DNA from: Onchidella celtica
Lineage: Eukaryota; Mollusca; Gastropoda; Systellommatophora; Onchidiidae
Assembly (NCBI GenBank): GCA_963931925.1
Contig: OZ007569.1
Location: 46,367,021-46,431,020, forward strand
Direction of reading: 5' to 3'
DNA length: 64,000 nucleotides
Position 1 is the stretch's first letter, and every line of letters begins with the position of its first letter. Under the pieces are notes generated by a model that worked only from the letters and a program-made list of their open reading frames with translations, had not been told where the DNA came from and searched no databases. A program made the translations under genes and the position numbers. Shown here piece after piece: positions 28,605 to 57,475 of this stretch.

Positions 28605-29285
28605 TCTTCACCCGTGACGCCTATTGTCAATGTCAGTTATATTATCTCACCCCTGTCTCCTGTTACTTATTGTGATATCTTCACCCCTTTTTCCTTTTGA
28701 TTGTAATGATATTGTAAACCCTGTTTCCTATCGTCTCCTATTGTCTCCATTATGCCATATTTATCCTTGTCTCCTCTTGTCTCTTCTAATGATATCTTCA
28801 CCTTTGTCTCCAGTTGTCTATACTGATGACATCTTCATCCTTGTCTCCTGTTGTCTCTACTGATGATATCTTCACCTTTGTCTCCTGTTGTCTCTAATAT
28901 TATATCTTCTCCCCTGTTTCCTATTGTCTTTGCTGTGTATCTTCGCCGATGTTTCTTGTTGTCCCTACTAATGATATCTTCACCCTGGTCTCCTGTTCTC
29001 TATGACTTGATATCTTCTCCCCTGACTCCTGTTGTCTGAGCTAATGACATCATCATCTCCGTTGTCCTTACTAATAAATAATATCTATATCCCTGTCTTC
29101 CCTTGTCTCTACTATAATATCTTCACAACTGTCTCCTGTTGTCGCTGTTATATCTTCACCCCTGTTGCTTGTTGTCTCTGCTATAATACCTTCACAACTG
29201 TCTCCTGTAGTCTATGCTATAATATCTTCAGTCTCTTGTTGTTTCTGCTATAATATCTTCACACCTGTCTCCTGTTGTACACGTT
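28605..29285 (+). repeat. Pyrimidine-rich 36/37-bp degenerate array, copy B
   Basis: It is homologous to 13850-14480, with about one extra unit (TACTGATGATATCTTCACCT) near 28858. Confidence 0.8.
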
Positions 29286-35935: not shown

Positions 35936-36225
35936 AGTGGGACACTGAACTGGTTCCGCCTCATGCGTTCTCTTACCTTTCCGTGCAGGCTGACATTTCC
36001 TCGCGCGTCACTGTCACACGCATTGCAACGACAACAAGTAAGTCTACACGTTTTCTATCCTCGCCAGTGGTGTTTTGTCTGTTGTGTTATATCGCATGTC
36101 CTCAGCTGGACGATATACAACAGTTAATATTCAAAGGCTGTACCCGGAGTCCTTCACGTGAACTTACTGAGTTGTGAAAAAACGAAAAGTGTTTAATACT
36201 CTAGTTCCTTCCCGGCCAGCTAACA

Positions 36226-39200
36226 ATGTCTTTGGCTGCTGCAGTGCTGGTTCTGGTAGTGTTTGTACAATGGTGAGTAAGATCGTCCTTTAAGCTGCTT
36301 GTCTTTATTTGTTGTTGTTGTTTATTTGTGTTGTTGTTTTTTTCTTTCACGTGGGAGAAGGCAGAGTGGGAGTTGTGGAAATATAGTGAAAGAACGAATG
36401 GCCTGTTTCGATATTCTTTGTCTCGGGTACTGTGCTCTGTTGTGTTTTGGACTACTTAAAGTTAAACTTTACACAAGACCCCCCCCCCCCCCATCCCCCT
36501 AATGGGCGTTATGGCCTGCTTTATTTTTTGTCCAGTTTCCATTTTGGTATGACCAAAAGAGACTGTAAGTCACAAAAACTCACACAATAAGATGTAGTAG
36601 ATTTCATTCTGTGTCAAAAAATGAGTTTGACCAACATTGAAATGTACGATCTTTTTCGGTAAAACGACAGTATTATAATTCATTCCAAATAAATTCCAAA
36701 TATTCACACGAATTGTCTTAAGTCGAGGGACTTTTCTCCCCGACCTTGTTGACACTACTGCCCTTTGTAGGGCTCTGACCAACGCTGAGACACCCCCGCC
36801 CCCAAAAATGAAAACGAAACAAAAAAAACTTCAAACTTCCATATATTCTCTCCCCTGTAGGCATTGCTCTCATGTCTATTTTTGGCTGGAGATGTCATCA
36901 ACAAAGCAGTTAAGAAAACTATCTTCCTCAATTCTCCATACCCACACAATGTACCAAAGAAGTACACTTTTGCCCCTCCGAAGTTGTCTATGTTTTGTTT
37001 TTTCTATGTTAGATTCAAGTATACTTATGTACAGTCTCCTTTTCTCCGACGTTTCAGGGATCAAGTCTCTAGTAAACTTGTGAACAATCCCGCCATAGAG
37101 GAAAGCGTTATGTCCTTGTTCCCTGGACTGTTCAAGACCGATGGAGAAGTCGAGACGATCAGGAAAGCGCAGCAACTTGAAGATCAGTTGGGGATACCTG
37201 GCTTTGAGAAATCTAAAAAGAAGGTTGGTATCCTGGTCCGCACTTTATGAATAAAACAAACTCTTTATATCCAATGTTCTTTGTCCATGCAGTTTCAATG
37301 CAGAATCTCCAAACATTCATGCGTTGTTTTGTAAGACTATACTTCCCAAAAGGGCGATTAAATAAGCATTTAGACGTTTGATTTCAATTGTGGGATGGGA
37401 AAATTAATGTTTTAGTTTGTTTCACTTGATGTTACTCCACAGAAATTATGGATTTTGTTCTGTCTTTCGCCGGAAAGTCCGAGGCATCACGGGCGCATGG
37501 AAATTTGGAATATTGAGACAAACCAAAACAATAAATGACACAACACACGAAACCAAAATTCCAGCTCGTCCTTTGATCAATTTCATATTTTATTTCGTCT
37601 TACCTCATGTCATTTTGAACATTCATAATGTGGCACTACCTATGGATGGCTTGCAAAGCATCATGATCAGTATCACAATTCTGGTTGGCCACTATTACTA
37701 ATAAAAGGGACACTACTTGTCATTTCAGAGTGGGTTTCCTTATCTCTTCGTTAACAGCCACTCCACCCAACAGCCACAACATCAAAATGTGTAATATGTG
37801 TTTTCCTTTTTCTTCATCTCTCCTTCTGAATCGTCATTCCTTCTCGTCCTGATCCAATTCTTAGTGGAAAATCAAATGAGATAACATTAACAAAACTTAT
37901 TGCACGTTAACACTTTACATTTTTTTTCATCTTTTATTTGCTTTTTTTTTCCTTTCTTGTTCTTCTTCGTTTTTGTATCCAACACCATCACATTCTTTTG
38001 TGCATTCCTTTTTCATCGGTTTAGTTAATATCATCTCCAGCGAAGTTTAAATTTCGTCTCTGTTCAAAATGTACTGAAGGATGACAATGATGATGGCTAG
38101 CCTGCGAAAGCCGGGATTTGTAACTTGAAGCAGTATGACTCGATCGTTTGTGTGGGTATAACGGGTTTTGTTTCTTTGAAAATAAAGCAGGACCCGTCGA
38201 GCGGACCGTTTAAAATTTATTCACATATCCAGTTTTTTAACTTTTAAGATTGATCAGCGGATCTTCAAATTGCCACTAGCAGTCCACAGTGCATTACTAG
38301 TCACGTCGGTTCATCCAGCCTAACGCATACATACTTTTACTGGGCCTTGAGACGAAATTCTCAACCTTGGGGTATGCGGAGACATTTTAGGCTGCGTCTT
38401 GTTGGGTGAACAGAGACAATGACAACAATAGCCACATGCACACACATAAAATCTACGGCGAGTTTGGTTTCAGATGCAGCGAGACCTTCTCACTATGCAC
38501 TGTTTTTTTTTACTACCTTGATAAGTGTTGTATTTTCTCGCCCTTCCTGTGCATATATGAGTGTCAGAGGGAGAGAGAGAAAGAAAGAGAGACAGAGAGA
38601 GAGAAAGAACAAATTAAAGGGAAAGGATGGGGTGGGCGAGGTTTAACCTGTGCTCAGATTTTGGCAGGGGCCGCAAAGCAAGAAAAACTTGAAAACCTCA
38701 GAATCAAAGTAAATAATACATATAAAATACATTCTTAAAATTTCATTTGAATGAAAAAAATGTAAACTTAATTAAAGGGGCGGGGGGAGGGGGGGGGGAG
38801 AATCAGTCTAATTGCGATGCAGCAATTTTTTTTTTATTGCAGTTACATCCTTGTTGAATTTACAGCTACCTCCATGATTTGAGGTCTTTATTTTAGGAGG
38901 TTCGCTGCCCTTGGCATTTACACCTCACTTTACTTGTTTTTTTATTATTTCTTGTTCTGGCGGGTAGGGGGGGGGGAGATGATATGGATAAATTTTAACC
39001 TATTAATTTCAATTTTGCCCGGGCAGCGGCCTTTCGGCCTGCTCTTTACGATTTCCAACTGCCAAGGTATCTTTAACGTGCGCAGCGTGCACACGGGCCC
39101 TCCGAATTTTTTCGTCCTTATCCGAGAAGACTAGGTACTCGATCCTACCCCCCAATAGGACCAGGGACTTGAAAATATGAGAAAAATCCAATTTCCAAGA

Positions 39201-42200
39201 ACTACTCGATCCTACCCCCCAATAGGACCAGGGACTTGAAAATATGAGAAAAATCCACTTTCCAACATGCCTGCACTGCCCGGGTTTAGAACCCGGGACC
39301 CTTGGCATAAGAGGCGAGCACCTTGCCTCTAGACCACCTTGTCCCCCTCGATGATCTGCACACGTTCCCCTTTAAAAGAAAATCTGCCTCTCTGCCCTTG
39401 CCGAGGACCTTTGAAAACTTTTGTTTTAAATAAACAGGCAATTTTCTTGGAAAGTTTTCTCAGAATGTTTGTACCTATTACTTGAAATTCTCATGCCAGC
39501 ACTAGCCTTGAAGAAATTTGCTGCATGTGCTTCATCATGTTACAGTTAAATAAAGGTGAACAAAACTGGGTATAAATCCCAGAATGTTCAATACAATTAC
39601 ATACGTCAGCACAGAGGAATGCAACTTATAACAAGTTGTTTTCCCTCTGTGTATGTGTGTATGTGCGTGTGGGCGCTTTGGGGGGGGGGGGGGGGGGAGC
39701 AGTGAAGGTATCATAAAAGTCCATGCCCAACGAACTTGAATCAGTTTGGTTTAAACCAAAAGCTGATGTAAGCTGCAAAACAAAATCAAAACAAAATGAT
39801 GTCTTGTAATGTTGCAATCTTTGAAAATTTAATCAATGATCGAGTACACGTAAATCTTTATTGTCAAGACAATTAGAAACTCTTGACAATTCCAAAGATC
39901 CAAAGATCAGAGAAATGGCGAGAACAACAACATCAGTATACCTGCACATAGAGCAGCAGAAAGTAGAATGGTTCGGACACCTTTTACGAATGCCGATCTC
40001 CCAGTTGGCAAATCATGCATACAATGTGCGGTTCTTTGGACCAGTGGCGTCAAAGAAGCTCTGGCAACCCACGGCATTATGCCAAAACCGATTTCCCAGC
40101 TGGCTGCAGACCGAAAGTTCTTTCTTCCTGCGACGCTATGGATGGTCCAAGCAGATTGAAAAAACGAAGGAAAGACAATTCCTAAGGCCACTCAAAATGG
40201 ATTTCTTCCTTACTGCATGGGCGTCCTGGGTATTTGCCCAAGGTCCCCAAGGGCTCCAGGCATGCAAATCTCTGAGTAATGGTATAGGGGACGAGGAACA
40301 GCTTATTGCTTTTCCCCGTGGGGGGGGGGGGGAATTAATTATGTTAAGTCGGCCCTGATTTCTTAGTGTGTTCTACCAAAATGTCAGACGTTTAGAGATG
40401 ATTTTAAATGCAACATATACTTTTTACTATCTCTCTCTCATTTGTTTCCAGGCACACGGGAGACCTGAAAGACCCAGTGGAGGAAGACCCAATGTCATCT
40501 TACACGGCTGCTGCAGATCGTAAGTGACATTGTCAGCCCTCTTTACGGCTTTTTCACTATTTTCATATTGAATTTCTGTTTTTCTTTCAAACCATACAAA
40601 AACTTAATTGATATTTTTAATTTCATGCTCAGCGGTGACAGCAATTATATATATATATGGCCTTTAGCGTCTTTACAGACGGTCTTAGCAGCTAGAATAT
40701 TCACTTTCACTTTGACTGACAGCTTCTCTCGTGGCTTATTCTACCAATGTTTGACCCGAGAGTGCGATGGCAGTGATTGCAGGTCAGTCTTTTGGGTTCA
40801 CTTTGGCGAGTGTTTTCATTCCGCCTCTGTCGTTTTGTCAGGTATGTTTCTTTTGCCTTGAAGTCTATTGCGAGCGTGCCACTGCGCAATTTTTGTCTCC
40901 GTCTGCTTCGATCATTTGCAAGGTTCTCCCATTCATTGGGGTCGATGTTGAATGCTTTCATCGTGACCTTGCAAGTGTCTTTGAATCGCAGATGTGGCCT
41001 ACCTCTGGGTCGGTTGCCAGTAGCAAGTTCCCCGTAGAGAATTTGTCTGGGGATGCGATCATTTTCCATACGGTGGAGATGTCCAAGCCACCGCAGTCTT
41101 TTTTTGCCTAGGAGAGCCTGAGTTGATGGAATGTTGGCTCGGCTCAGAACTTCGATATTTGAGATCCTGTCTTGCCACTTGATCTTGAGAATTTTGCGTA
41201 GGCAGCGCAGGTGGAAGGAGTTGAGGGATCTTTCATGTTTGGAGTAGGTGGTCCATGTCTCTGAGCCATACAGCAGGGTGCTTAGGACGCAAGTTTGGTA
41301 CACGAGTACCTTTGTTTTGATGGTCAGCTTGCTATTGTTCCACACCCTTTTTGAGAGTTTGCCAAAAGCTGTGGCCGCCTTTCCTATTCTGGCATTTATT
41401 TCAGTTGTTATGTCTGTGCTACCACTGATGGTTGAGCCTAGGTAGCAGAATTTTCCCACTTGCTCCAGAGGAGAGCCATTCAGCATGATTGGGTTGGGGT
41501 TTCTCAAGCCTTGTGTCAAAACTACAGTTTTTGAGACACTGATCTTTAGCATGAATTTGTCACAGGCTTTGGCAAGGCTATTGATGAGAGCCTGGAGCGT
41601 GGTTTCATCGTGGGCCACGATTGCAGCATCATCTGCGAAGAGGAGCTCTTGTAACATAATATGCTCTGTACGAGATTTTGCTTTTAGTCTGGCAACATTA
41701 AAAATGGAGCCGTCCACTCTGGTGTTAATAAGTACTCCACTTGAACATTGACCAAAGGCATTCTTGAGTAGGGCTGCAAAATATATACCAAATAAGGTAG
41801 GAGCAAGAACACATCCCTGCTTCACACCGCTGTTTACAGCAAATGAATTGGATGTGCAGCCCTCAAAGTTGACACATGCCCTCATGTCAGTGTGGAAGGA
41901 TGCAATAAGTTTTAGCAATGTTGGTGGACAGCCTATGGATTTAAGGACTGCATACAGGCCAGATCGGCTTACGGTGTCGAAAGCCTTTGTTAGGTCCACA
42001 AAGCATGTTATAAGCGGCCTGTTTTGTTCTTTACATTTTTCTTGGATTTGCCGAAGTGCAAATATCATGTCAATAGTTGATCGTTTGCTTCGAAAGCCAC
42101 ATTGTGTTTCTGGTAAGACTTTTTCCGCCAGTTGTTGAAGGCGGCAGAGGATGACGCGAGCAAAAGCCTTTCCAGTAATGCTGAGGAGGGATATGCCTCG

Positions 42201-45200
42201 ATAGTTGTTGCAGTCGCCTTTGTCTCCTTTGTTCTTGTAAAGTGTGACAATTTTGAAGTCTCTCACATTGTCACAAATCCCAGACTGGGAGATGTAATAA
42301 GTATGACAGGACAACAATCACGAACAACAAGTTTAACACTTAACAGAACAACCCATCAGACTCACACATTTATTAAACATAATTATACATATAATAGCGC
42401 AATTACATACATTATATTATTGAAATGCACTGCCGTACAACGGCCTTATTCTCACACACACTCTCCCTCGGATCCACAATCCGGTAGTTACTCCTAAAGG
42501 CACTTCGGCCTCAGCCTCTCCCCTCAGGGTCTTAATAACACATTAGTAATTTACTGGCACCGCAGTCTCTCAATATCCCCTTCCTATTGTCATACACCTT
42601 AGCACTCCCCTAGCACCTCAGCAGGGCAATAACACATTATTATTTCCATAGCCATCAACATGGCAACAACATAGTATCAGTTCACTAGCCTATCAACATG
42701 GCAACAATATAGTATCAGTTCACTAGCCTATCAACATGGCAACAATATAGTATCTCATTCACTCTCATATCTACGTCCCTGTCCGTGGCCTGACTGCCAC
42801 GACTTTATGTGCCTCTACTGTCCTGCACTGACAGCCTCGCTTCTGGCCTATGTGCGGCCTCCGGCCCTATGCTGGCCTATCCCCTGTGCTCATCGAGGTG
42901 GCTCTGCGGCCCGTCCCCGACACCAGTCATAGCTGGAAAGACTCTCACTAGTCTTCTCGACTGCTTCCCCTTTATGTCCGCCCGATGGGCTCTTATGCAC
43001 AGGTCCGATCCCTAGGACCTTCTAACTTGCAGTGATAGTTATACAGCGCTTTCGCCTCCTTCAGACCCCCCCCCCCCACTACTCACAACAGCACGCTTAA
43101 CTTGCTGTCTACTGTGAGTCCTTCTTACTCTACACCCGCTCTGTAGCAATCCCCTTAATTGCACTCACTCCACTCGTGACATCATCCCCCACCCCAAAAA
43201 AATTAATGCAATTAATTTCAAATCGCATCAAGATGACTGTCAACGAGTGAGTGTGAGCAATACGTACACTAAAAAAAAAATGACCTAGCAGTTCCCCTAG
43301 TATATAAAATACCGAAATCAGGGGAAAATATGGGGATCAATATGGCCTGCAATATGCATATATGTGTCACATCATGAATAGCTAACTAACCACAATACTT
43401 AATACAGAATCAAAAACCATTCAACCTATCAACCATTCTTCATATCATATTTATAATGTCAATATTTTAAAGTCGACTCATTCACACAAATCCTGTCAAT
43501 GTTCCTGTCCTCCGATGCATAAGCTCCTGAAATCTTCCCCTAGGCTCGACTAAGGTAGTCGGCGATATGATTGCTGGTTCCTGGAATTGGTTGAATAACG
43601 AAGGTGTACGGCTGTAAAGCCAATGCCCATCTAGACAAGCGTGGGCTGGACGAACGATTCTTCGACAAAAATGTCAGTGGCTTGTGGTCTGTCTGGATAC
43701 AAAATTCTCGTCCCATGAGATAACGTCCCAATTTCTGGACGGACCAGACAATGGCAAGACACTCACGCTCTATCACAGAATACTTTCTTTCTCTCTGCAA
43801 TAACTTCCTACTGACATAACATACAGGATGGAGACATTCGTTCTTCTCCTGTAGAAGACAAGCGCCGACACCAGAGTCCGATGCATCCGTTCTGAGGATA
43901 AAATTAGATCGAAAATCGGGTAATATCAAAATGGGTGACGATGATAATGCTGTCACCAAATTATCAAATGATGTCTGACATTCAGACGTCCACTGGACCT
44001 TATCGGGTTGTCCCTTCTTAGTAAGGTCAGTAAGAGAAGATGACAAGGAGGAAAAATTTGGAATGAACTTTCTGTAATAATTTAAAATTCCCACTAAGCT
44101 TCTGACTTGTTTCTTTGTTTTAGGGATTTGCAACCCTGCCAGTTTGTCAATTTTTGTTCCTTCAGGCCTCTGAACACCTCTACCCACGATATGTCCTAAG
44201 AATATTATCTCTGGACATGCCAAATCCATCTTTGCGGGTTTAGCAGTTAACCCAAAATGACGTAATCGTTGAAAAATTACTGTTAGTGTCTGAATATGAT
44301 CAGACCATGTCGACGTATGGCATGCTATATCATCAAAGAATGACACGACATTAGGTATGTCCTTCAACACTAGTCTCATTAATCGTGCAAACGTCGCTGG
44401 CGCGTTTACCAACCCAAATGGCATGACCTTAAATTGGAATAATCCAATGGGCGTTTGAAACGCCGTGTATTGTTTAGACTCCTCAGTAAGCGGGATTTCC
44501 CAATAACCTTTCGTTAAATCTATCTTGGAAAACCACGTGGACCCGGCCAATGAAGCTATTAGTTCCTCCTGAAACGGAATAGGCTCCCTATCGCCTACCG
44601 TAATAGTGTTCAATCTTCGAAAATCAATACAGAACCGCACCGATCCATCAAGTTTTTTCACGAGGACGATGGGTGATGAATACGGCGATGTTGATGGTTC
44701 TATCACATCTAACTTCAACATTGACTCAACTTCCTTTATGACTCTATCTCTCGAAGAAAAAGGCAGCGGATACGGTCTAAGAAATACTGGCTTATCCGAA
44801 GTCAACTTTATTTGGTGCTGGATCACCGTAGTGCGACCCGGCAAATCCGTAACAACATCCGGAAATGACGCTAACAGGGTCTCAAGTTCCCTACTCCTTG
44901 AACTTGTAAGGTCAGGGTTAATTTTTACGTCCCTGTAACCTTGTGTCGGAGTTAACTCCGGCAATTGAATTTGTAACTCTTCCTGCGCCTCGGTGTCGCT
45001 TACGTCACAGTCCAACTGGTCTACGACCCCCGTACAAGCAGTAGAGAAGACAGTCTCCTCTGGTCTTGTCTGTGCACACAGATACTGTGGTCTCTCATAA
45101 AATCTCTGTAGCATATTAACATGGAAAACCTTACTCGCTCCATCAATGTGGATAGCGTAATCTACCTTTGAAACAACTCGCTCAATAACATAAGGACCTT

Positions 45201-48200
45201 TCCATGTCATCAATAACTTATTATGGTCCGTAGGTAACAACAATAGGACCTTGTCTCCTGGCTTAAAAATTCTCAGTTTGGAACCTCTATCTTTATAGTC
45301 TTTTGCTCTTTCTGAAGCGATACTAGACGCTTCTTCTGCTATAGTGCGCGCTGAAGATAGTCTTTCTCTTAAATCAACAAGGTCTATCGAAACCTTTTTA
45401 AACGGTTCCGAAACCGTGGGGATCTTTTGACGAGGAGCCTGAGGTGTACGACCCTTATGCGTCGTCTTTTGGCACGCACTGCACGTCTTACAATATAACC
45501 CTACATCTCTATGTATCGATGGCCAATAAAAATATTTCAGGACTCTCTCCTTGGTTCTAGCACTTCCCATGTGACCCGCTAATGGAACATCATGGGCCAG
45601 ACGCAATACTGTAGCAATTAACGACCGTGGCACGACGACTTGCTTTTCAACGGAAGCCACTATGACGTACATACGGAACAGAATGCCCCCCTGGACAAAA
45701 AAAGAAGATGACCCGTTTTTATATTTCCTTGTTTTCTCGGTTCGCGCTTCCCCAAAACACGGGTTTAATGATGGATCCTCCCTTTGTAATCTCGCCAAGC
45801 GCTCTGGCGTGATATCTAGGTTGACTGCTGGCGTTGCCAAGGGTCTAATTTTACCCTTATCACCTACCTGTCGACGTGTCTCGACCGCGGCACAAAAGTC
45901 AATACCTTTTGATTGCGACCATGCTTGCACGTTCTCATCGGAAGGGGAAACTACCCGTGATACATTCCCAATGATGAGCTGGGCGCCTGGAAAACAACCA
46001 ACGACCGCTTCGACTTCCCCGTTAAGGAAAGGTGTATCTATCATTATTCTTGCCATGGGTAATTTCTCAATGGCCCCCGAAAATTGGATGCACGGGACAG
46101 TCTCACCTGTAAGCTGTGAATCCCGAATGCAGTCTCTATGCACTCCCACAACGGTAGATCCTGTATCTCGTAAAACCGAGACCGGTTCGTCCCCAACAAA
46201 CCCCGGATAAACCCCAAGACCACCTCCTGTATGACATGAATTTATAACGGGGATCTTTCTCCCACAAGGTAAAATACCGGAAGATAATAACTTCTCACAA
46301 CTGGGACACTTAGAATACTGTCCGCCTCCGTTGTCCGATGTAACACACGCAGCCGCATGATGAAATTTATTTGGGGAACATGGACTGGAGCTACTGTCCA
46401 CGTTCGGGGCTATCCTACCTGCAGGGCAGTTCACGCTGATGTGATCTGCTCTTCCGCAGTTCCAACACTTCGCGGCCCTACACTCGCGCGAAAAGTGACC
46501 CACGCGTCCGCAAGTCCAACACTCCGCTCCCTGTGCTGCCCTAGGCCTGGGTCCCCGTGACCCCTCGCGACCGGAACTAGAGTCCCTATGCCGTCGGTCA
46601 TCGGCAAAGGTCACAACTCGCCCCCGGCCATTACCGCGACCTAGCCCTCCTGCTCGGTCAAACTTACCGGATCCATATGCCGGTGATTGGTGATAGCCCC
46701 TATGCTGCCCCTGGCCTTGCCCACTATAGGCACCACGCTGACGCGACCTGTCCCTAAGTCCTGCCGGCGACCCCTCGACAACGGCGACGTACCCAGCATC
46801 TTGGACGTACGCCCTGGCGACTGGTTTGGACGGGTGCGCCGTACGGTATGCCTCCGCCAACTTAGACGCCTCCTGCACCGTCGCGGGTTCGTTCTCTTTC
46901 AGGAAAGCCACCAGATCTTTGTGGCACGACGCGTACAGCTGGTCACGGATCATTAAGTCTTTCAGTTTAGCAAAATCCGTGCCCACATGCGCCAAGTCTA
47001 CCCAGTTCGCGAAATACTCCGTTAGTCTCGCGACGAAGGCAGCAAAGTCCTCCCTGGTATCTGCACGTGCCCGCCTAAACTGCTCCCGGAAGTATTCCTC
47101 GGTACGCGCAAATCGGCGAAGCAGCAAAGCCTTCAGCTTATCGTAGTCTTGCACGTCTTCGCGCTGTAGCTCTTTAAAGTAGGTTAACGCTCGCCCCTGC
47201 AATAGCGATGCCAGGTACGTGGCCCATAATTCCTTATTTTCCCCCCATTGCAATTGTGCGTTCAGTTCGAACCTGTAAAGGAAGGCGTCTATGTCGTCCT
47301 TCCGGTCGTCGAACGTAGGGAGCTTAATCCTAACGCCACCTTTATTGGGTACCTGCCGCTCAACTGTTTCTGTTGGCGCACTCTTTTTGCTTTCTAATTC
47401 TGCGATTCTTACTCGCGCGTCTGTCTCCCGCTCTTGAGCTTCTATCTCCTTTAACTTTAACTCCCTCTCCTGTTGCTGAGCCTCTAACTCCTTTAACTGA
47501 GCCTCTTTTTCTCGCTCTCTATCCTTAGCACGCTCATCGCGCATTTCTGCCTGCTGTTCTTTAATCCAGCCGCGTAGCTCTTCTCCCTCCAGGCCAAGTT
47601 CCTTACCCAACTTCATTAGTTGTTGGAGTTCCGCCATTTCACCGATTTATGGTTATGGTATCTATTATAAGACGACCAACCTGTCGGTATGATCACTAGC
47701 GATACGACCAGAGACCTGAGATCACACCAGATATAACAAAACCCAAATACAATTCAGCAACACCCCTAACTAAACATTCTACAGCCTACTCTCTCTAACT
47801 AATTGTATGTTTATAACATGTCTAGCACTATTGAATAACAAAACGAAAGGAAAAGATAAGAATGAGAAAATTCAGTAGAAGGACCACAAGTACGTCAAGG
47901 ACAACGAACCAGACTAAGACAAAGGCCTAAAAAAGAAAATATAATGGAAAAAAAATGCAACCTAAATACGCCGATTACACTACAAGGTACGAACAAGAAC
48001 AGAGTCTGAAAAAAAAGAACGTATTTACAGACAGGTAAGAGAGGGACAAGAGAAACGTCTTCCTAAAACAACGAGGAAGATATCGACGCTACAACTAAAC
48101 AATATTACAGGTCCCTACAGAACTGGTCACTGTGATGAACGAAGTTCCAAAGTTTACCACACCTTTTTAAAAGGATAAACTAAGTTCAACACAGCAAACC

Positions 48201-51200
48201 CGCGCCACCGCCCGTATAATCAATTACAACGAAAACAGCAAAAACAGGGAAACAGACAGATGAAAAGACAGCCCTTAATCCAGGGTACAAAATTTTAGAC
48301 TTTTACTTAACTTTCAATTTTTGAAATTTTGAGTAAACTCCTCCCTTTAATCGGAGCTCTGGCTGCTCGTCTCCTCAGGCTGCACGCACACACACTGTCT
48401 CTCTGAAATTTAAGTACACATTAATACATATTCATCAAAATACATGCATCAATATATATTATTATTCATAAATATACCTAAATCATATCATGAAATGTCC
48501 ATTCATCCAACGAACAAGACAGCACAAATACCTACTAACTAACTACAACTAAATATTACGAAAATGGACGAGTCACAATGGACGAGCCCCCAATGTCACA
48601 GCGGACGAGCCCCCAATGTCACAACGGACGAGCCCCCAGTGTCACAACGGACGAGCCCCCAGTGTCACAACGGACGAGCCCCCAGTGTCACAAATCCCAG
48701 ACTGGGAGATGTAATAAGTATGACAGGACAACAATCACGAACAACAAGTTTAACACTTAACAGAACAACCCATCAGACTCACACATTTATTAAACATAAT
48801 TATACATATAATAGCGCAATTACATACATTATATTATTGAAATGCACTGCCGTACAACGGCCTTATTCTCACACACACTCTCCCTCGGATCCACAATCCG
48901 GTAGTTACTCCTAAAGGCACTTCGGCCTCAGCCTCTCCCCTCAGGGTCTTAATAACACATTAGTAATTTACTGGCACCGCAGTCTCTCAATATCCCCTTC
49001 CTATTGTCATACACCTTAGCACTCCCCTAGCACCTCAGCAGGGCAATAACACATTATTATTTCCATAGCCATCAACATGGCAACAACATAGTATCAGTTC
49101 ACTAGCCTATCAACATGGCAACAATATAGTATCAGTTCACTAGCCTATCAACATGGCAACAATATAGTATCTCATTCACTCTCATATCTACGTCCCTGTC
49201 CGTGGCCTGACTGCCACGACTTTATGTGCCTCTACTGTCCTGCACTGACAGCCTCGCTTCTGGCCTATGTGCGGCCTCCGGCCCTATGCTGGCCTATCCC
49301 CTGTGCTCATCGAGGTGGCTCTGCGGCCCGTCCCCGACACCAGTCATAGCTGGAAAGACTCTCACTAGTCTTCTCGACTGCTTCCCCTTTATGTCCGCCC
49401 GATGGGCTCTTATGCACAGGTCCGATCCCTAGGACCTTCTAACTTGCAGTGATAGTTATACAGCGCTTTCGCCTCCTTCAGACCCCCCCCCCCACTACTC
49501 ACAACAGCACGCTTAACTTGCTGTCTACTGTGAGTCCTTCTTACTCTACACCCGCTCTGTAGCAATCCCCTTAATTGCACTCACTCCACTCGTGACACAT
49601 ATCATGTGGTATCACGCCTTCTTTCCAACACTGCAGTAACAGATTATACAGGTGTGGTAATAGTGGGCCTTTTAGGTCTTTTAATACCTCTGCAGGAATG
49701 TTGTCACTTCCTGTGGCTTTTCCAGCAGACAGGTGGTCGATTGCATTGGAAAGCTCGACTAAGGAAGGTTCAGCGTCAAGTTCGGCCATTATTGGCAGTT
49801 TTTGGAGGTGTTCCTCAAAATCTGGTGGAATATTTTTCTCAGTTGAATACAACAGAGAGTAATGCTCTACCCACCTATTCAGTTGTTCATTTTTATCTGT
49901 GATGGGTTCACCATTTACAGACTTAAGTGGGGCGCTTTTGGTGATGATTGGCCCAAGAGCTACTTTCATCTGACTAAAGGCGGTTTTCATATCTCCCTTT
50001 TCATTTGCCTCTTGTATGCTGTTACACAAGTCTGTCCAGTATTTGTTGGCGCAACGTCTTACCTCCAGCTGAAGTTTAGCTTTTGCATTTTTCAAACAAG
50101 TTTTTGTACTCTGATTGCAATTTTTGTTATACTCATTGAAAGCAGATTTCTTTTGCTCAATGAGAGGTAGGAGAATTTCGCTGTTCTGGGCTACCCAGTC
50201 GTTGTTTGAAACTTTATGCTGTCCAAAAGACTTGATGGCACAGTCATGAATTTTTGAACTAAGAGTGTTCCATGTTTCATCTACCGAGTCACATTGGGTG
50301 ACATTATCCATGCTTTCAGCAAATAACTTTTCAAATGACTTTCTATTTGATTTATCTCTGATTGCTGTTACATTGATCTTAGGGATTGAAGGGGCTTTTG
50401 ATCTGTATATTTTCTTGGCCGAAATTTTGATTTTGCTGACTACCAGTGCATGGTCGGTGTCACAGTCAGCACTGTGGAGGGAACGAGTTATTTTTATACA
50501 GCCCAAACTCTTCCTCCTTGAGAGAATAAGATCTAATTGATGCCAATGGCCAGACCTGGGATGGCGCCATGATGTTCTTTGGCATCTCTTAAGGTCAAAG
50601 TACGTGTTTGTAACACATAATGAGTTTACGGAGCATAGCTCCAGAAGGCGCTGCCCGTTTTCGTTGATGTTGCCAATGCCGAAGTGCCCAATGCACTTTG
50701 GCCATGCGGAGTGATCTGCTCCCACTCGAGCGTTAAAGTCACCCAGAATTAGCAGGCCTTCGGTGAGAGGGATGTTGTGGAGAGTCCTCTGCAATGCCTC
50801 GTAGAAAATGTCTTTGGTTTCGTCAGAGGAGGTAAGTGTTGGGGCATAGACACAGATAATGTTGGTAAAACCAGACCGGGTGTTCAGTCTGAGTGTCATT
50901 ATGCGTTCTGACACTCCAATTGGAGTTGCGATCGAATTGATAAGGGAGTTTTTTACGGCGAAGCCCACGCCGTGGATTCTCGGCTGTTCGCTGCTAAGGC
51001 CCTGACAGAAGAAGGTGTAGTTTTCTTCTTTGACTGACCCGGAGTCGGGAAGTCGAGTTTCTTGAAGGGCAGCGATGTCGATGTTTAGTAGCTGAAGTTC
51101 TCGATCAATAATTTGGGATTTCCTGATGGAGTCAATATCAGTGAGATCTTGCTGTTGCAAGCCTGGGCGCATTGTTCTGACGTTCCAGGTACCAAGTTTT

Positions 51201-53104
51201 AGTATTTTTCTGTTTTTGCCAGGTGCACACTTTACGTCAGCTTTTTGACTTTTGGTCTAGCTCCAACCACCTTATGAAGCAGGCTGACGTGGCGGAACAA
51301 CACCCAACTGCCTGGGGGCTGCCCAGGTTACGGCGGGCGGTAGTTGATCAATGCAGCTGAAAAGCCGCTCCCACCGACAGAGGGGACCCCTGGCGCTCAT
51401 CCGTACGCCAAATGGATTGAGCTTATCACCGGTAACTGCCACCTCCCGTGTTGTGCCCATCCGTAACGGATGGCTGGAGTGTCCTCTCCAAATCGGAAAT
51501 GGGTGGGCTTATAGAGGAGAGACAGACGCTTGCCAAGCCCGAGCAAACGCCTCCTTGTTTTGCTGCCTTGCCTGGGCTATTTTTAAGAGATGGTGCTTTG
51601 CCCAGAGGCACCACCCCTCTCTCTGCCATTCTAGTTAAACCCAAGGGAGAGACCAGGTCAATACATTTGGAACTAGTCCGGCTGCAGGAGATGCTGGAAG
51701 CCAGTTTTATGCAGTTCTCCCTGACAACCACCTTCGGGTCTCCACTCCTGATTTTCTGTCTGGGTTTACTCCTATAGCCTTTGCTATCATAGCAACACAC
51801 AAGGCAGTGTGGTATTTGTATTCAGGGTTACCTTCCCCTAGTCTTCCTCTCTCCCGAGATGACCCACAAGACAGTGGGGGTGACAGTAGCAGGCTGTATT
51901 GTGTACTGTCGTACAATAGCAGAAAACTCTGGCCTGACAAAAGACAGCAATTATACCACAATCATATATCTTAAAATATCAAATCTTAACCTAGAGGGCT
52001 TTGTAAATATGCTTTAGGAAATAAGGAAATAAATCTCTGAACCATTATCTGAAATCAATTAAAAAAAAACATTATACAGTATCATTCAGTTATCTTTACT
52101 CTTTCTTTAAATAAGTGAAACTCTTGCAGTCAATGAAAATGTTCAATGCCCGTGTTTTGCTGTTTGCAGGGAGCACAAGTTGCGAAACTTCTTTCGCCTG
52201 AAAAATGCTGAGGGCGTTAAGGTCGAAATCGTGGAATTTCCCAATAGGAAACAATATTTTCAGGTGGACACGTGCGAGTAAGTGTGGACAGGTTTTGTGT
52301 TTTTGTATGTTCTACCACAACAGAGGAAGGATTGGGGAGAGATACCTGTAGTCAGCAAAGTGGAATGTGTAGTGACACAAAGTGATAGACCATTCAAAAA
52401 TTTGTTCATTTTATTTTTCTTAATGATTTTCTTCTCTTTTGTTTTTCACAAATTTCATTCCCTCCTCTTGCAATTTTCTATCTCTCTTTCCCTTCCCTCA
52501 TCCTTCACATTTCCTTCCTTTGTTGCTCTTTCGTCCATGCTTGCTCTCCCTCCGAGCTCATTCTTTCTCTTTCACTTTCCTACTTTATTTTCTTTCTTCT
52601 GTTCATTCTCTCTTTGTTTTTATTTTTCGTCCTTTCATCTTTTGCCTTAGCGACTATCCTGTCTACTCTTCTGTTCTAACCTTCAACATCATTTTTCCTT
52701 TGGCTGTCGACCTCTCTTCGTCTCAGTCTAGCTTCCTCTTGACTTGCCTTTTCACTATTTCCTCCCAACCTTACTAAATGAATCATGTAGCATTGAATTA
52801 TAATTAGGTCATTCTAATCACATACCCATGATCTTGCAGAATGGCGCCCAATTGCCAAACCTGTGGTTGTGCACCAGAGAGTCGTCTCCATACAGCTCTA
52901 ACTTTGAATAACGGCAATGTTCAGTTTGAATTGGTATTTGCACCCACTGTCTGCAGATGTTACAATAATTTACGCAGAAGATCTCGGCCTAAGGAAACAA
53001 AGCCTCGGACAAGAACGAGGAAGGTGAACATTCGACAGAACTCCCCTTCGATTATAAAATCTGCTAATCTGGCCCCACCAAATTTACAGGAAAATATTTG
53101 TTAA
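36226..53104 (+). CDS. Spaetzle/neurotrophin-like cystine-knot gene, copy C
   Basis: Predicted exons are 36226-36272 (signal-like), 36861-36991, 37058-37223, 40452-40519, 52170-52277 and 52840-53104. Exon 2 here is 131 bp and joins exon 3 in frame (phase 2), encoding NSPYPHNVPKKYTFAPPKL. This is therefore the copy with the best reading frame, although exon 1 (phase 2) does not fit exon 2 (phase 0) as drawn. Intron 4 is enlarged by the LINE and nested LTR element to 11.6 kb. The Cys-rich domain keeps every Cys of copy A, but surrounding residues differ strongly and the tail is basic and shorter. The family call rests on Cys spacing and is inference. Confidence 0.5.
36861..36991 (+). CDS. Copy C exon 2
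   Basis: This 131-bp block lies between CCCTGTAG and GTTTTG. Frame 0 gives ALLSCLFLAGDVINKAVKK and then a Pro/Lys-rich stretch. The frame also stays open through the 66-bp interval to exon 3, so this could instead be one unspliced exon. Confidence 0.4.
38879..39350 (-). mobile_element. tRNA-derived SINE, copy C only
   Basis: This 472-bp insertion is flanked by ATGAT (38874-38878 and 39351-39355). Copies A and B show the empty site CTCCATGATCTGCACACG. On the minus strand the 5' head at about 39348-39265 contains box A-like GTGGTCTAGAGGCAAGG and box B-like GGGTTCTAAACCC, as in a tRNA. The middle holds a direct repeat of about 67 bp (39136-39202 and the following copy). Next comes a block with GCACGTTAAAGAT, similar to segments I associate with conserved central domains of molluscan SINEs. 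Confidence 0.85.
39858..40015 (+). pseudogene. Degenerate LINE RT fragment, copy C
   Basis: This is the same remnant as 11595 and 24035. Confidence 0.45.
40452..40519 (+). CDS. Copy C exon 4
   Basis: This 68-bp exon after TTTGTTTCCAG encodes AHGRPERPSGGRPNVILHGC and ends before GTAAGT in phase 2. It is the same length in A (12187-12254) and B (24627-24694). Confidence 0.55.
40650..42268 (-). mobile_element. RTE-like LINE, 3' (RT) half, copy C
   Basis: This is the right-to-left continuation of the LINE split by the LTR element. The 3' end has a short untranslated part of about 57 bases and an (AT)n tail, followed by the target duplication GACAGCAATTATA (40637-40649, repeated at 51943-51955). 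A very short 3' UTR with a simple-repeat tail is typical of the RTE clade. Confidence 0.9.
40707..42268 (-). CDS. LINE reverse transcriptase with C-terminal zinc finger (interrupted ORF, 3' part)
   Basis: The frame includes the RT motifs TLYKNKGDKGDCNNYRGISL, QCGFRSKRSTIDMIF, CFVDLTKAFDTVSR, VKQGCVLAPTLF and LLFADDAA (catalytic ADD). The thumb and C-terminal segment with LRWLGHLHRM follow, ending in a CNHCHRTLGSNIGRISHERSC finger-like motif. It is open up to the LTR junction, and the small frame extension beyond 42268 comes from the LTR. The 5' half resumes at 49603 in the same frame once one copy of the 5-bp duplication is discounted. Confidence 0.9.
42269..43181 (-). repeat. 3' LTR of element 3
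   Basis: It is 913 bp. It lacks the 319-bp GT...AG segment present in the solo LTR at 15946. It contains two to three tandem copies of a segment of about 36 bp with CACTAGCCTATCAACATGGC near 42650-42750. Confidence 0.95.
43182..43539 (-). other. 3' untranslated part and polypurine tract of element 3
   Basis: About 358 bases lie between pol stop and 3' LTR. Next to the LTR the element strand reads a T run, then GGGGTGGGGGATGA (complement of 43182-43195), the polypurine tract, sharing its core with element 1. Confidence 0.8.
43540..47637 (-). CDS. Gag-pol of element 3, order GAG-PR-(INT remnant)-RT-RH
   Basis: The 1365-residue frame starts MAELQQLMKLGKELG, with a charged coiled coil at about 20-95. 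Two zinc knuckles (CWTCGRVGHFSREC, CWNCGRADHISVNC) lie near residues 371-405. The protease motif RDTGSTVVG is near 489. The integrase HHCC finger is intact near 679-725. Only the first catalytic Asp remains (SIDLV near 752). The frame then jumps to the segment preceding WKGPYVIE, so the second Asp and the Glu are gone. RT (RFCIDFRRLN, SFFDD) and RNase H (RTDASDSG, ERE, TDHK) look complete. By comparison with element 1 about 180 residues are missing, in frame. RT should be made, but self-integration should be impossible. Confidence 0.93.
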   Translation of the reverse strand: MAELQQLMKLGKELGLEGEELRGWIKEQQAEMRDERAKDREREKEAQLKELEAQQQERELKLKEIEAQERETDARVRIAELESKKSAPTETVERQVPNKGGVRIKLPTFDDRKDDIDAFLYRFELNAQLQWGENKELWATYLASLLQGRALTYFKELQREDVQDYDKLKALLLRRFARTEEYFREQFRRARADTREDFAAFVARLTEYFANWVDLAHVGTDFAKLKDLMIRDQLYASCHKDLVAFLKENEPATVQEASKLAEAYRTAHPSKPVARAYVQDAGYVAVVEGSPAGLRDRSRQRGAYSGQGQGQHRGYHQSPAYGSGKFDRAGGLGRGNGRGRVVTFADDRRHRDSSSGREGSRGPRPRAAQGAECWTCGRVGHFSRECRAAKCWNCGRADHISVNCPAGRIAPNVDSSSSPCSPNKFHHAAACVTSDNGGGQYSKCPSCEKLLSSGILPCGRKIPVINSCHTGGGLGVYPGFVGDEPVSVLRDTGSTVVGVHRDCIRDSQLTGETVPCIQFSGAIEKLPMARIMIDTPFLNGEVEAVVGCFPGAQLIIGNVSRVVSPSDENVQAWSQSKGIDFCAAVETRRQVGDKGKIRPLATPAVNLDITPERLARLQREDPSLNPCFGEARTEKTRKYKNGSSSFFVQGGILFRMYVIVASVEKQVVVPRSLIATVLRLAHDVPLAGHMGSARTKERVLKYFYWPSIHRDVGLYCKTCSACQKTTHKGRTPQAPRQKIPTVSEPFKKVSIDLVDLRERLSSARTIAEEASSIASERAKDYKDRGSKLRIFKPGDKVLLLLPTDHNKLLMTWKGPYVIERVVSKVDYAIHIDGASKVFHVNMLQRFYERPQYLCAQTRPEETVFSTACTGVVDQLDCDVSDTEAQEELQIQLPELTPTQGYRDVKINPDLTSSRSRELETLLASFPDVVTDLPGRTTVIQHQIKLTSDKPVFLRPYPLPFSSRDRVIKEVESMLKLDVIEPSTSPYSSPIVLVKKLDGSVRFCIDFRRLNTITVGDREPIPFQEELIASLAGSTWFSKIDLTKGYWEIPLTEESKQYTAFQTPIGLFQFKVMPFGLVNAPATFARLMRLVLKDIPNVVSFFDDIACHTSTWSDHIQTLTVIFQRLRHFGLTAKPAKMDLACPEIIFLGHIVGRGVQRPEGTKIDKLAGLQIPKTKKQVRSLVGILNYYRKFIPNFSSLSSSLTDLTKKGQPDKVQWTSECQTSFDNLVTALSSSPILILPDFRSNFILRTDASDSGVGACLLQEKNECLHPVCYVSRKLLQRERKYSVIERECLAIVWSVQKLGRYLMGREFCIQTDHKPLTFLSKNRSSSPRLSRWALALQPYTFVIQPIPGTSNHIADYLSRA
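47638..48580 (-). other. Leader of element 3
   Basis: About 0.94 kb of untranslated sequence lies between the primer-site array and gag. No gene was recognised. Confidence 0.6.
48581..48685 (-). repeat. Five-fold tandem primer-binding-site array (tRNA-Pro type)
   Basis: On the element strand a 23-bp unit repeats: TGGGGGCTCGTCCG (complement of a tRNA-Pro 3' end) joined to TTGTGACAC, the last eight bases of the LTR plus the one-base spacer. Unit starts on the plus strand are 48581, 48604, 48627, 48650 and 48673. The two distal units have small changes, the proximal ones are identical. The duplicated unit spans exactly the LTR-end/primer boundary. Confidence 0.9.
48686..49597 (-). repeat. 5' LTR of element 3
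   Basis: It is 912 bp and identical to 42269-43181 by eye except for poly-C length. Confidence 0.95.
49598..51942 (-). mobile_element. RTE-like LINE, 5' half, copy C
   Basis: It carries the endonuclease half of the ORF plus about 0.7 kb of 5' sequence. The outer end is fixed by the target duplication GACAGCAATTATA at 51943-51955. Without the nested element the LINE is about 3.96 kb, plausible for a full-length RTE-like element. Confidence 0.88.
49603..51172 (-). CDS. LINE AP-like endonuclease and linker (interrupted ORF, 5' part)
   Basis: The first in-frame Met is at 51172, but coding similarity extends upstream. The preceding in-frame bases encode LGTWNVRT, the N-terminal strand of APE-type endonucleases, back to a stop at about 51259. 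Motifs seen are LQETRLPDSG (metal-binding Glu), ICVYAPT, LLILGDFNARVG, WRHPRSGHWHQLDLILSRR and DCDTDHALV (catalytic Asp and His). The frame runs to the LTR junction at 49602. The missing upstream Met suggests a non-standard start or a small 5' mutation. Confidence 0.9.
52170..52277 (+). CDS. Copy C exon 5 (cystine-knot part 1, diverged)
   Basis: This 108-bp exon encodes EHKLRNFFRLKNAEGVKVEI and VEFPNRKQYFQVDTCE. Compared with copy A, seven of nine changed codons alter the amino acid, several to Arg or Lys. Confidence 0.6.
52278..52839 (+). other. Copy C intron 5, pyrimidine-rich
   Basis: A long TTC/TCC-rich tract (about 52420-52770) is shared with A (12830-13200) and B (27475-27845). Confidence 0.6.
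52840..53104 (+). CDS. Copy C exon 6 (cystine-knot part 2, basic tail)
   Basis: It encodes MAPNCQTCGCAPESRLH and FELVFAPTVCRCYNN, then a basic tail (LRRRSRPKETKPRTRTRKVN) ending QENIC. A 112-bp difference relative to A and B removes the acidic segment and shifts the frame. Confidence 0.6.
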
Positions 53105-53299: not shown

Positions 53300-54590
53300 G
53301 ACATCTTCACCAATAACGCCTATTGTCAATGTCAGTTATATTATCTCACCCCTGACTCCTGTTCCTTATTGTGATATCTTCACCCCTTTTCCCTTTTGAT
53401 TGTAACGATATTGTTACTCCTGTTTCCTATCGTCTCCTATTGTCTCCATTATGCCATACTTGTCCTTGTCTCCTGTTGTCTCTGCTAATGATATCTTCAC
53501 CTTTGTCTCCAGTTGTCTCTACTGATGACATCTTCATCCTTGTCTCCTGTTGTCTCTGCTAATGATATCTTCACCTTTGTCTCCAGTTGTCTCTCCTATG
53601 AAACCTTCGGCCCTGTCTCCTGCTGTCTCTGCCAATGGTATCTACACTCTTGTCTCCTGCTCTCTACTTCTGATATCTTCATCACTGTCTCCTGTTGTCT
53701 CTGCAAATTGTTTTTCACCCAGTCTCCTGTTGTCTCTAGTGATGATATCTTCACTCTTTTCTCCTGTTTTCTCTAATATTATATCTTCTCCCCTGTTTCC
53801 TGTTGTCTTTGCTGTGATATCTTCGCCGATGTTTCCTCTTGTCTCTACTAATGATATCTTCACCCTGGTCTCCTGTTGTCTCTACTGATGACATCTTCAT
53901 CCTTGTCTCCTGTTGTCTCTACTGATGATATCTTCATCCTTGTCTCTTGTTGTCTCTACTGATGACATCTTCATCCTTGTCTCCTGTTGTCTCTACTGAT
54001 GATATCTTCATCCTTGTCTCTTGTTGTCTCTACTGATGACATCTTCATCCTTGTCTCCTGTTGTCTCTACTGATGACATCTTCACCCTTGTCTCCTGTTG
54101 TCTCTACTAATGATATCTTCATCCTTGTCTCCTTTTGTCTCTACTGATGACATCTTCATCCTTGTCTCCTGTTGTCTCTACTGATGACATCTTCACCCTT
54201 GTCTCCTGTTGTCTCTACTGATGACATCTTCATCCTTGTCTCCTGTTGTCTCTACTGATGACATCTTCACCCTTGTCTCTTGTTGTCTCTAATATTATAT
54301 CTTCTCCCTTGTTTCCTGTTGGCTTTGCTGTGATGTCTTCGCCCCTGTTCCTGTTGTCTGGGCTAATGATATCATCATCCCTGTCTCCTGTTGTCCTTAC
54401 TAATAATATCTACTAATGATATCTTCAACCTTGTCTCCTGTTCTCTATGCCTTAATAGCTTCTCCTCTGTCTCCTGTTGTCTGGGCTAATAATATCATCA
54501 TCCCTGTCTCCTGTTGTCCTTACTAATAAAATCTCTAGACTCCTGTTTTCTCTTGTCTCTACTATACTATCTTCACAACTGTCTCCTGTT
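53300..54590 (+). repeat. 37-bp pyrimidine-rich array, copy C, older part
   Basis: Units of the type GTCTCCTGTTGTCTCTACTG followed by ATGACATCTTCATCCTT are mostly 37 bp, so the reading frame rotates unit by unit. This part corresponds to the short arrays of copies A and B but has more units. Confidence 0.85.
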
Positions 54591-57475
54591 GTCTCTGCTA
54601 TAATAAATTCACCACTGTCCCTTGTTGTCTCTGCTATAATATCTTCAAACCCGGATCTTGTTGTTTCTGCTATAATATCTTCAAACCCGTCTCTTGTTGT
54701 TTCTGCTATAATATCTTCAAACCTGTCTCTTGTTGTTTCTGCTATAATATCTTCAGACCCGTCTCTTGTTGTTTCTGCTATAATATCTTCAAACCTGTCT
54801 TTTGTTGTTTCTGCTATAATATCTTCACACCTGTCTCTTGTTGTTTCTGCTATAATATCTTCACACCTATCTCTTGTTGTTTCTGCTATAATATCTTCAC
54901 ACCTGTCTCTTGTTGTTTCTGCTATAATATCTTCACACCTGTCTCTTGTTGTTTCTGCTATAATATCTTCAAACCCGTCTCTTGTTGTTTCTGCTATAAT
55001 ATCTTCACACCTGTCTCTTGTTGTTTCTGCTATAATATCTTCACACCTGTCTCTTGTTGTTTCTGCTATAATATCTTCACACCTGTCTCTTGTTGTTTCT
55101 TCTATAATATCTTCAAACCTGTCTCTTGTTGTTTCTGCTATAATATCTTCACACCTGTCTCTTGTTGTTTCTGCTATAATGTCTTCAAACCTGTCTCTTG
55201 TTGTTTCCGCTATAATATCTTCACACCTGTCTCTTGTTGTTTCTGCTATAATATCTTCACACCTGTCTCTTGTTGTTTCTGCTATAATATCTTCAAACCT
55301 GTCTCTTGTTGTTTCTGCTATAATATCTTCAAACCTGTCTCTTGTTGTTTCTGCTATAATATCTTCAAACCCGTCTCTTGTTGTTTCTGCTATAATATCT
55401 TCAAATCCGTCTCTTGTTGTTTCTGCTATAATATCTTCTAACCTGTCTCTTGTTGTTTCTGCTATAATATCTTCAAACCCGTCTCTTGTTGTTTCTGCTA
55501 TAATATCTTCAAACCCGTCTCTTGTTGTTTCTGCTATAATATCTTCAAACCCGTCTCTTGTTGTTTCTGCTATATCTTCAAACCTGTCTCTTGTTGTTTC
55601 TGCTATAATATCTTCACACCTGTCTCTTGTTGTTTCTGCTATAATACCTTCAAACCTGTCTCTTGTTGTTTCTGCTATTATATCTTCAAACCCGTCTCTT
55701 GTTGTTTCTGCTATAATATCTTCAAACCCGTCTCTTGTTGTTTCTGCTATAATATCTTCAAACCTGTCTCTGGTTCTTTCTGCTATAATATCTTCAAACC
55801 CGTCTCTTGTTGTTTCTGCTATAATATCTTCAAACCCGTCTCTTGTTGTTTCTGCTATAATATCTTCTAACCTGTCTCTTGTTGTTTCTGCTATAATATC
55901 TTCAAACCCGTCTCTTGTTGTTTCTGCTATAATATCTTCAAACCCGTCTCTTGTTGTTTCTGCTATAATATCTTCAAACCCGTCTCTTGTTGTTTCTGCT
56001 ATATCTTCAAACATGTCTCTTGTTGTTTCTGCTATAATATCTTCACACCTGTCTCTTGTTGTTTCTGCTATAATACCTTCAAACCTGTCTCTTGTTGTTT
56101 CTGCTATAATATCTTCAAACCCGTCTCTTGTTGTTTCTGCTATAATATCTTCAAACCCGTCTCTTGTTGTTTCTGCTATAATATCTTCAAACCTGTCTCT
56201 TGTTGTTTCTGCTATAATATCTTCAGACCCGTCTCTTGTTGTTTCTGCTATAATATCTTCAAACCTGTCTTTTGTTGTTTCTGCTATAATATCTTCACAC
56301 CTGTCTCTTGTTGTTTCTGCTATAATATCTTCAAACCTGTCTCTTGTTGTTTCTGCTATAATATCTTCACACCTGTCTCTTGTTGTTTCTGCTATAATAT
56401 CTTCACACCTGTCTCTTGTTGTTTCTGCTATAATATCTTCACACCTGTCTCTTGTTGTTTCTGCTATAATATCTTCAAACCCGTCTCTTGTTGTTTCTGC
56501 TATAATATCTTCACACCTGTCTCTTGTTGTTTCTGCTATAATATCTTCACACCTGTCTCTTGTTGTTTCTGCTATAATATCTTCACACCTGTCTCTTGTT
56601 GTTTCTTCTATAATATCTTCAAACCTGTCTCTTGTTGTTTCTGCTATAATATCTTCATACCTGTCTCTTGTTGTTTCTGCTATAATGTCTTCAAACCTGT
56701 CTCTTGTTGTTTCCGCTATAATATCTTCACACCTGTCTCTTGTTGTTTCTGCTATAATATCTTCAAACCCGTCTCTTGTTGTTTCTGCTATAATATCTTC
56801 ACACCTGTCTCTTGTTGTTTCTGCTATAATATCTTCAAACCCGTCTCTTGTTGTTTCTGCTATAATATCTTCAAACCCGTCTCTTGTGGTTTCTGCTATA
56901 TCTTCAAACCTGTCTCTTGTTGTTTCTGCTATAATATCTTCACACCTGTCTCTTGTTGTTTCTGCTATAATACCTTCAAACCTGTCTCTTGTTGTTTCTG
57001 CTATAATATCTTCAAACCCGTCTCTTGTTGTTTCTGCTATAATATCTTCAAACCCGTCTCTTGTTGTTTCTGCTATAATATCTTCAAACCTGTCTCTGGT
57101 TGTTTCTGCTATAATATCTTCAAACCCGTCTCTTGTTGTTTCTGCTATAATATCTTCAAACCCGTCTCTTGTTGTTTCTGCTATAATATCTTCACACCTG
57201 TCTCTTGTTGTTTCTGCTATAATATCTTCAAACCCGTCTCTTGTTGTTTCTGCTATAATATCTTCACACCTGTCTCTTGTTGTTTCTGCTATAATATCTT
57301 CAAACCTGTCTCTTGTTGTTTCTGCTATAATATCTTCAAACCTGTCTCTTGTTGTTTCTGCTATAATATCTTCACACCTGTCTCTTGTTGTTTCTGATAT
57401 AATATCTTCACACCTGTCTCTTGTTGTTTCTGCTATAATATCTTCAAACCTGTCTCCTGTCGCCCTTGCTATATC
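54590..57475 (+). repeat. 36-bp array, about 80 units, copy C
   Basis: The unit GTCTCTTGTTGTTTCTGCTA followed by TAATATCTTCAAACCT is 36 bp, with variants at about three positions (AACCC, ACACC, AGACC). As 36 is a multiple of three, both strands stay open: plus strand 12-residue SLVVSAIISSNP-type repeats over 1094 residues, minus strand ETTRDGFEDIIA-type repeats over 1053 residues. A higher-order period of about 1470 bp is visible (54751 versus 56221). I treat the frames as by-products of the array, not genes. Confidence 0.92.

Follow-up and report, generated by a model that had tools for sequence, protein, structure and literature searches.

The usual picture of the primer binding site (PBS) of an LTR element is of one site that serves both for priming and for reception of the plus-strand tail. 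In retroviral LTRs, tandem repeats change number during reverse transcription, and short tandem repeats in general change number through DNA slippage or unequal exchange. Lauermann and Boeke reportedly found in 1994 that the primer tRNA sequence of Ty1 is not inherited. For HIV-1, the available portion of PMC13191261 gives m1A58 as the main stop of reverse transcriptase on the primer tRNA and modified base 37 as a minor one; the same portion assigns m1A58 to all retroviral primer tRNAs, tRNA-Pro included, and m1G37 to tRNAs for codons that start with C, except CAN. The order in which integrase precedes reverse transcriptase is given as a mark of the Gmr1 clade of Ty3/gypsy in the available portion of PMC6238403. 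Our literature search, which had limited reach into subscription journals, found no report of natural tandem primer sites.

The window, a 64,000-nucleotide stretch of the genome of Onchidella celtica, contains a young LTR retrotransposon on its minus strand. The two LTRs are nearly identical (no substitution and one 1-base gap), and both start with TGTCAC and end with GTGACA, thus having the TG..CA ends of LTR retrotransposons. The 3' LTR ends in ..TTTGTGACA and is followed directly by ATGTG, and ATATG precedes the 5' LTR. These pentamers form a target-site duplication with one difference; ATATG is also found in a duplicated block near 26440. The parts of the element are as follows.

49598..49602, minus strand: target-site copy ATATG, 5' side
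48686..49597, minus strand: 5' LTR, 912 bp, TGTCAC..GTGACA, one 1-base gap and no substitution against the 3' LTR
47647..48564, minus strand: 5' leader, its bound set by the limit of the open frame
43540..47646, minus strand: single gag-pol open frame, stop to stop, with zinc knuckle, integrase H2C2, then reverse transcriptase and RNase H
43182..43195, minus strand: purine-rich tract GGGGTGGGGGATGA ahead of the 3' LTR, located by eye
42269..43181, minus strand: 3' LTR, 913 bp, adjoined directly by target DNA without extra units
42264..42268, minus strand: target-site copy ATGTG, 3' side (ATATG in the duplicated block near 26440)

The gag-pol frame has six Pfam matches, among them H2C2 (residues 672-729), RVT_1 (996-1154), and RNase H (1244-1347), which places the integrase H2C2 domain before reverse transcriptase. 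The domain search of the element covered the 43540-47646 frame and gave no Pfam match to the integrase catalytic core there; the window copy therefore looks internally deleted. A stretch in another fetched locus, L142, resembles such a core by eye. The element lies within a LINE-like coding region, with endonuclease on one side and reverse transcriptase on the other (40707-42317 and 49571-51256). Elsewhere in the window, direct repeats of 1,238 bp at 161-1398 and 7930-9167 are 99.8% identical, and in another block of the window the sequences flanking them on the outside adjoin each other; these repeats are probably the LTRs of another young element. Blocks at 9168-12388, 20667-26995, and 36025-42820 are present two to three times at 95-98% identity, and block 23522-26995 contains part of the LTR of the element studied here. 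A 36-bp tandem repeat of ~110 copies occupies 53467-57460 and has shorter relatives at 13969-14479 and 28733-29278.

The preliminary description had reported five 23-bp units, each composed of the LTR end, a spacer, and a tRNA-Pro PBS, at 48581-48685. This tandem PBS array is real. It lies on the minus strand at the end of the 5' LTR and has the described makeup; its true span is 48579-48693, the outermost bases having been missed. Each unit consists of the LTR end TTGTGACA, one spacer base, and 14 bases complementary to the 3' end of tRNA-Pro; in unit 1, the first 8 bases still belong to the LTR and form its end. The array comprises three exact units, one with a T spacer, and one, farthest from the LTR, with three changes.

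48671..48693, minus strand: unit 1, last 8 LTR bases, spacer C, and 14-nt tRNA-Pro PBS
48648..48670, minus strand: unit 2
48625..48647, minus strand: unit 3
48602..48624, minus strand: unit 4, spacer T
48579..48601, minus strand: unit 5, the last, CTGTGACAT.., ending ..CCA instead of ..CCG
48565..48578, minus strand: degenerate sixth unit TTGTGACTCGTCCA (TTGTGAC..TCGTCCA), start of the type A leader

Tandem Repeats Finder (TRF) scored the array at 216 with a period of 23, and the PBS 14-mer with up to two mismatches is absent elsewhere in the window. The predicted RNA fold of the array was unremarkable (z-score 0.16; 104 of 200 shuffles folded at least equally well), and a special RNA fold was rejected as a candidate.

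We searched the genome (1.14 Gb, 43 contigs) with a generic 72-base tRNA-Pro query. Of 47 candidates, 40 were scored, and 15 of these rows match 53-72 bases of the query with identities of 92-99%. A single gene, the best match, was fetched; ARAGORN calls it tRNA-Pro(TGG), and the PBS next to the 5' LTR thus matches a tRNA-Pro gene of the same host genome. This gene ends without an encoded CCA, so the TGG that opens the PBS represents the CCA added to mature tRNA. Positions 63-76 of the tRNA are those represented in the 14-nt PBS; directly beyond it the element has TTGT where the tRNA complement has GGAT. Near the end of U5 (48691-48698, minus strand) lies GGGATTTG; the same eight bases come next in the tRNA complement beyond the 14-nt PBS, and this stretch of U5 could pair with the T arm of tRNA-Pro.

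Exact junctions of LTR end and PBS number 4,389 in the genome and exact later units 2,962, or ~40% of exact units, and a reversed-pattern control occurred 0 times, which excludes chance. The first 100 listed junctions carry one unit (59), two (14), three (18), four (6), five (2), or six (1), so that 41 of 100 have two or more; this census samples the start of one contig rather than the whole family, requires an exact first unit, includes tandem neighbours and one double junction 200 bp apart, and scores several tail-bearing copies as one unit. DNA was read for 44 of the census junctions, and the counts obtained (27, 6, 7, 3, and 1 for one to five units, respectively) agree with those based on position. 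Absence of the array from other copies, which had been raised as a possible sign of a one-off local event, is thus not what the genome holds: unit number ranges from one to six across these junctions. A further 40 loci were picked by a five-unit query and were kept out of the census as biased; they have four (8 loci), five (26), six (4), or seven units (2), and L015, counted among the six-unit loci, consists of five units plus a partial copy. There are two leader types, and each occurs with one to several units. Unit numbers and spacer bases differ at many separate, independent places, and the idea that the array is an assembly error can be set aside almost entirely. Some family copies stand in rows ~7.1 kb apart (L051-L053, L059-L061, L109-L111), as if neighbours had LTRs in common.

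Some genomic copies run past the PBS into further tRNA-Pro sequence, with main ends at 18 nt and ~39 nt. An 18-nt tRNA copy after TGACAN occurs at 77 places in the genome; all were fetched (L071-L146) and gave 80 rows, 70 of them distinct. The search pattern demands 18 tRNA bases, and the set covers tails of at least 18 nt. In 14 of the 70 distinct rows the tRNA bases lie in the 23-nt register of the array or leader (..CCGGGATGACA..); in the other 56 they are out of register. Six of these 56 rejoin the array through an irregular join (L075, L078, L109, L118, L122, and L136), most of the others jump to leader, gag-pol, or LTR sequence, some of it inverted, and five rows (L101, L127, L128, L138, and L142) have no match to the window element. 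The 56 tails fall into a short class (18 nt in 30 rows, 19 in 5, 20 in 1, 21 in 2) and a long class (36 nt in 1, 37 in 3, 38 in 1, 39 in 4, 40 in 5), with single tails of 24, 25, 27, and 29 nt. The 29-nt tail (L102) has one changed base and then continues as tRNA sequence to ~40, and in four of the five 40-nt tails (L102, L107, L112, and L125) the last C is also present in the acceptor. The fetched tRNA-Pro(TGG) gene differs from the long tails by one base, and their source may, given this difference, be another tRNA-Pro gene. The TGG of the tails fits copying of mature tRNA.

The 18-nt tail ends before A58 and the 39-nt tail before G37; we infer that m1A58 and m1G37 are present in tRNA-Pro of Onchidella celtica. 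The tRNA-Pro search bears on the second stop, since 25 of its 40 scored rows were partial and all 25 start at query base 34-39. Fourteen of these rows were already among the 77 places, and the other eleven were fetched. Four belong to the studied family (L166, L167, L174, and L175). In four more (L169, L170, L172, and L176), the tail comes after ..TCAGCTGTTACATAT, the LTR end of what appears to be another family, and stops in the same stretch. In all eight the tail adjoins the LTR end directly, and in L168, L171, and L173 the LTR end of the second family is inverted behind the tail. L169, L170, L172, and L176 thus apparently mark a second LTR family with tRNA-Pro tails that end at or just before G37. 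Because the stop is common to both apparent families, its position is suggested to be set by the tRNA and not by one element. In two loci (L094 and L132), an inverted LTR end follows the 18-nt tail, as though plus-strand strong-stop DNA had served as its own template after folding back. L075, L122, and L127 contain units of the form ..GGGATCTAAA[CT]C[AG]TTGTGACA, which are perhaps ~25-nt tails read through A58 with changed bases. The 18-nt copy is absent from ~98% of first units, and tails must therefore usually be lost, corrected, or shorter; ~1.7% (73 of 4,389) keep it.

The position of the tails bears on which unit primes. At 73 of the 77 places, the tail lies right after the LTR end (in L097, after only the last bases of that end). 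Two places, both in the array of L098, have tails at later units, this array being tailed at units 1, 2, and 4; in L080 and L127, other DNA lies upstream of the tail. The difference between first units (73 of 4,389) and later units (2 of 2,962) has a Fisher p of 2e-14, in a test that takes places as independent and enters duplicate neighbours as separate places. Position 1 thus carries evidence of productive priming across the family. Several working priming sites, which the preliminary description had thought capable of changing replication efficiency, are contradicted by this distribution.

Could every unit nonetheless be a working primer site that raises priming efficiency? The PBS core of later units is nearly intact: 134 later units hold one mismatch over the 13-nt core and six over the 8 LTR-end bases, in counts that leave out arrays without a recognised leader (6 of 34) and with an indel (1 of 32), as against a mean mismatch of 5.5-5.9% in flanks, taken from a partly different locus set. 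This near-uniformity fits rapid turnover as well as constraint. The tails at later units of L098 also speak for additional primer sites. Under uniform use of units and the census distribution, however, the mean chance of unit 1 is 0.74, and ~26% of tails would lie away from it, far from the 2 of 77 observed; the chance that 50 tails all fall at unit 1 is ~3e-7 if the parents resemble the census. Priming at unit k would place k-1 units ahead of the tail in plus-strand strong-stop DNA, and for k>1 the same number would remain behind the 3' LTR. Integration of such ends might still occur, because every unit ends in the final 8 LTR bases. A search limited to flanks starting with A detected no extra unit behind a 3' LTR, and the window copy has none there; units left behind by later priming were rejected as a candidate on this basis. 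A unit followed by A occurs at seven places; the four that were read are array or leader with no host flank, and the other three are evenly spaced tandem neighbours of one read place. We therefore regard working primer sites throughout the array as very improbable. Read from these scars, evidence of productive priming is widespread at the first PBS only. This exclusivity could arise from integration rather than priming, in that later units prime yet their products do not integrate.

Comparison of closely related copies indicates when unit number changes. Nine loci provide six pairs of unlinked copies with no substitution in ~460 flanking bases. Four of the six differ in unit number; the small number of loci and the two pairs that agree count against the account favoured below. 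With up to three flank substitutions, 16 of 24 pairs differ. For the flank, unit, and join comparisons, 16 listed loci were excluded as the same place repeated or as duplicate neighbours, and a sample selected for an exact unit 1 was set aside. Because unit number differs between unlinked copies with identical flanks, the retrotransposition cycle is indicated as the stage of change. Unit number might likewise be altered by DNA slippage or unequal exchange after insertion, as is general for short tandem repeats. This explanation is at odds with the unlinked equal-flank copies that differ and with neighbouring duplicates that keep their array (L082-L084, L151-L152, and L109-L111, few groups though these are), and we consider it improbable.

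Individual loci suggest how the change occurs. The flanks of L078 equal those of the five-unit L017, yet L078 passes from unit 1 through an 18-nt tail to the last unit only, which suggests a picture of the tRNA tail skipping to the last unit. L015 and L118 have partial duplications at the PBS. No expansion was caught with both parent and product, and L015, L078, and L118 represent partial duplications or skips, not clean 23-bp gains. In L098 the tRNA-marked units lie within the array, which suggests addition of new units on the LTR side. At the 17 joins that could be aligned to the window copy from their first base, overlap averages 1.53 nt compared with 0.33 at random positions, and overlaps of at least 2 nt occur in 10 of the 17 joins compared with 6% at random positions. 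The 23 bp of a unit may be divided into 14 tRNA bases plus 9, or into 18 plus 5. A 27-nt unit, expected if an 18-nt tail had landed on GGGAT of U5, was absent among the 77 places, and that route was rejected.

These observations would be joined by the following sequence of events. With mature host tRNA-Pro as primer, minus-strand DNA would start at unit 1, the PBS adjacent to the LTR. The LTR, the spacer, and the 3' end of the tRNA would then be copied into plus-strand strong-stop DNA, and copying would stop at m1A58 (18 nt) or sometimes just before m1G37 (~39 nt). When the resulting tail lands on the minus strand, units 2 to n would act as extra landing sites and not as productive primer sites. 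Landing out of register would drop units, joins near the PBS could add them, and unit number would shift from cycle to cycle. Out-of-register landing of plus-strand strong-stop DNA, together with productive priming at unit 1, appears to be the most economical account. We infer landing on later units as the usual cause of the change in number, along with the step that added the first extra unit and the molecular step by which units are added. Taken as a whole, a changeable, family-wide array at the place where strand transfers meet, with unit 1 priming and out-of-register landing altering unit number, is the reading we consider probable, albeit by no means secure.

A serious rival is slippage or template switching of reverse transcriptase between repeats in the course of ordinary minus- or plus-strand synthesis, as at other retroelement tandem repeats, with no special role for plus-strand transfer. 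Whole-unit differences between identical-flank copies fit any slippage in the replication cycle, and 39 of the 40 loci obtained with the five-unit query have no tRNA bases between units. In L078 and L118, however, the tRNA tail sits precisely where the array junctions are altered, as suits plus-strand transfer but not plain slippage. General slippage of this kind is thus a possibility that we take seriously and think unlikely. The preliminary description had attributed the array to reverse transcription. This origin gains support from the identical-flank copies that differ and from the tail skip of L078, which together fall short of proof.

Under out-of-register landing with priming at unit 1, the array might in addition be an adaptation of the second strand transfer. 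It would offer several landing sites, the PBS having been split into one priming copy and several acceptor copies. The proposal rests on a mismatch between the 3' end of the tail and its landing site, since of the 18 tRNA bases copied the PBS of the family matches only 14. We put it forward tentatively and judge it rather doubtful. If it were true, the genome would be a readable record of the modifications of host tRNA-Pro.

The family has thousands of copies, a large share of them with a multiplied PBS, and the scars left in the genome separate priming from tail reception. The tails show where reverse transcriptase stopped on the primer tRNA in an animal genome, apparently in two element families. 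Failed transfers show one route to internally deleted copies. Strand transfer of an animal retrotransposon in vivo thereby becomes testable, mostly through sequencing.

The array resembles the tandem repeats of retroviral LTRs in that whole repeats are gained or lost between copies, and it differs from them in that the repeat includes the primer site and the LTR end. As is reported for Ty1 by Lauermann and Boeke, the 18-nt tRNA copy is missing from most copies; unlike Ty1, ~1.7% of first units here retain it. The main stop at m1A58 after 18 nt and a minor one at a modified base 37 are shared with HIV-1 plus-strand strong-stop DNA as presented in the available portion of PMC13191261, whereas the primer here is tRNA-Pro, the second stop falls before G37, and it is in integrated copies in the genome that the products are seen. 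With the Gmr1 clade, as characterised in the available portion of PMC6238403, the element has in common an integrase domain before reverse transcriptase, LTRs, and a 5-bp target duplication; the window copy differs in its lack of a Pfam integrase core, and the likeness is one of domain order, not of a tree.
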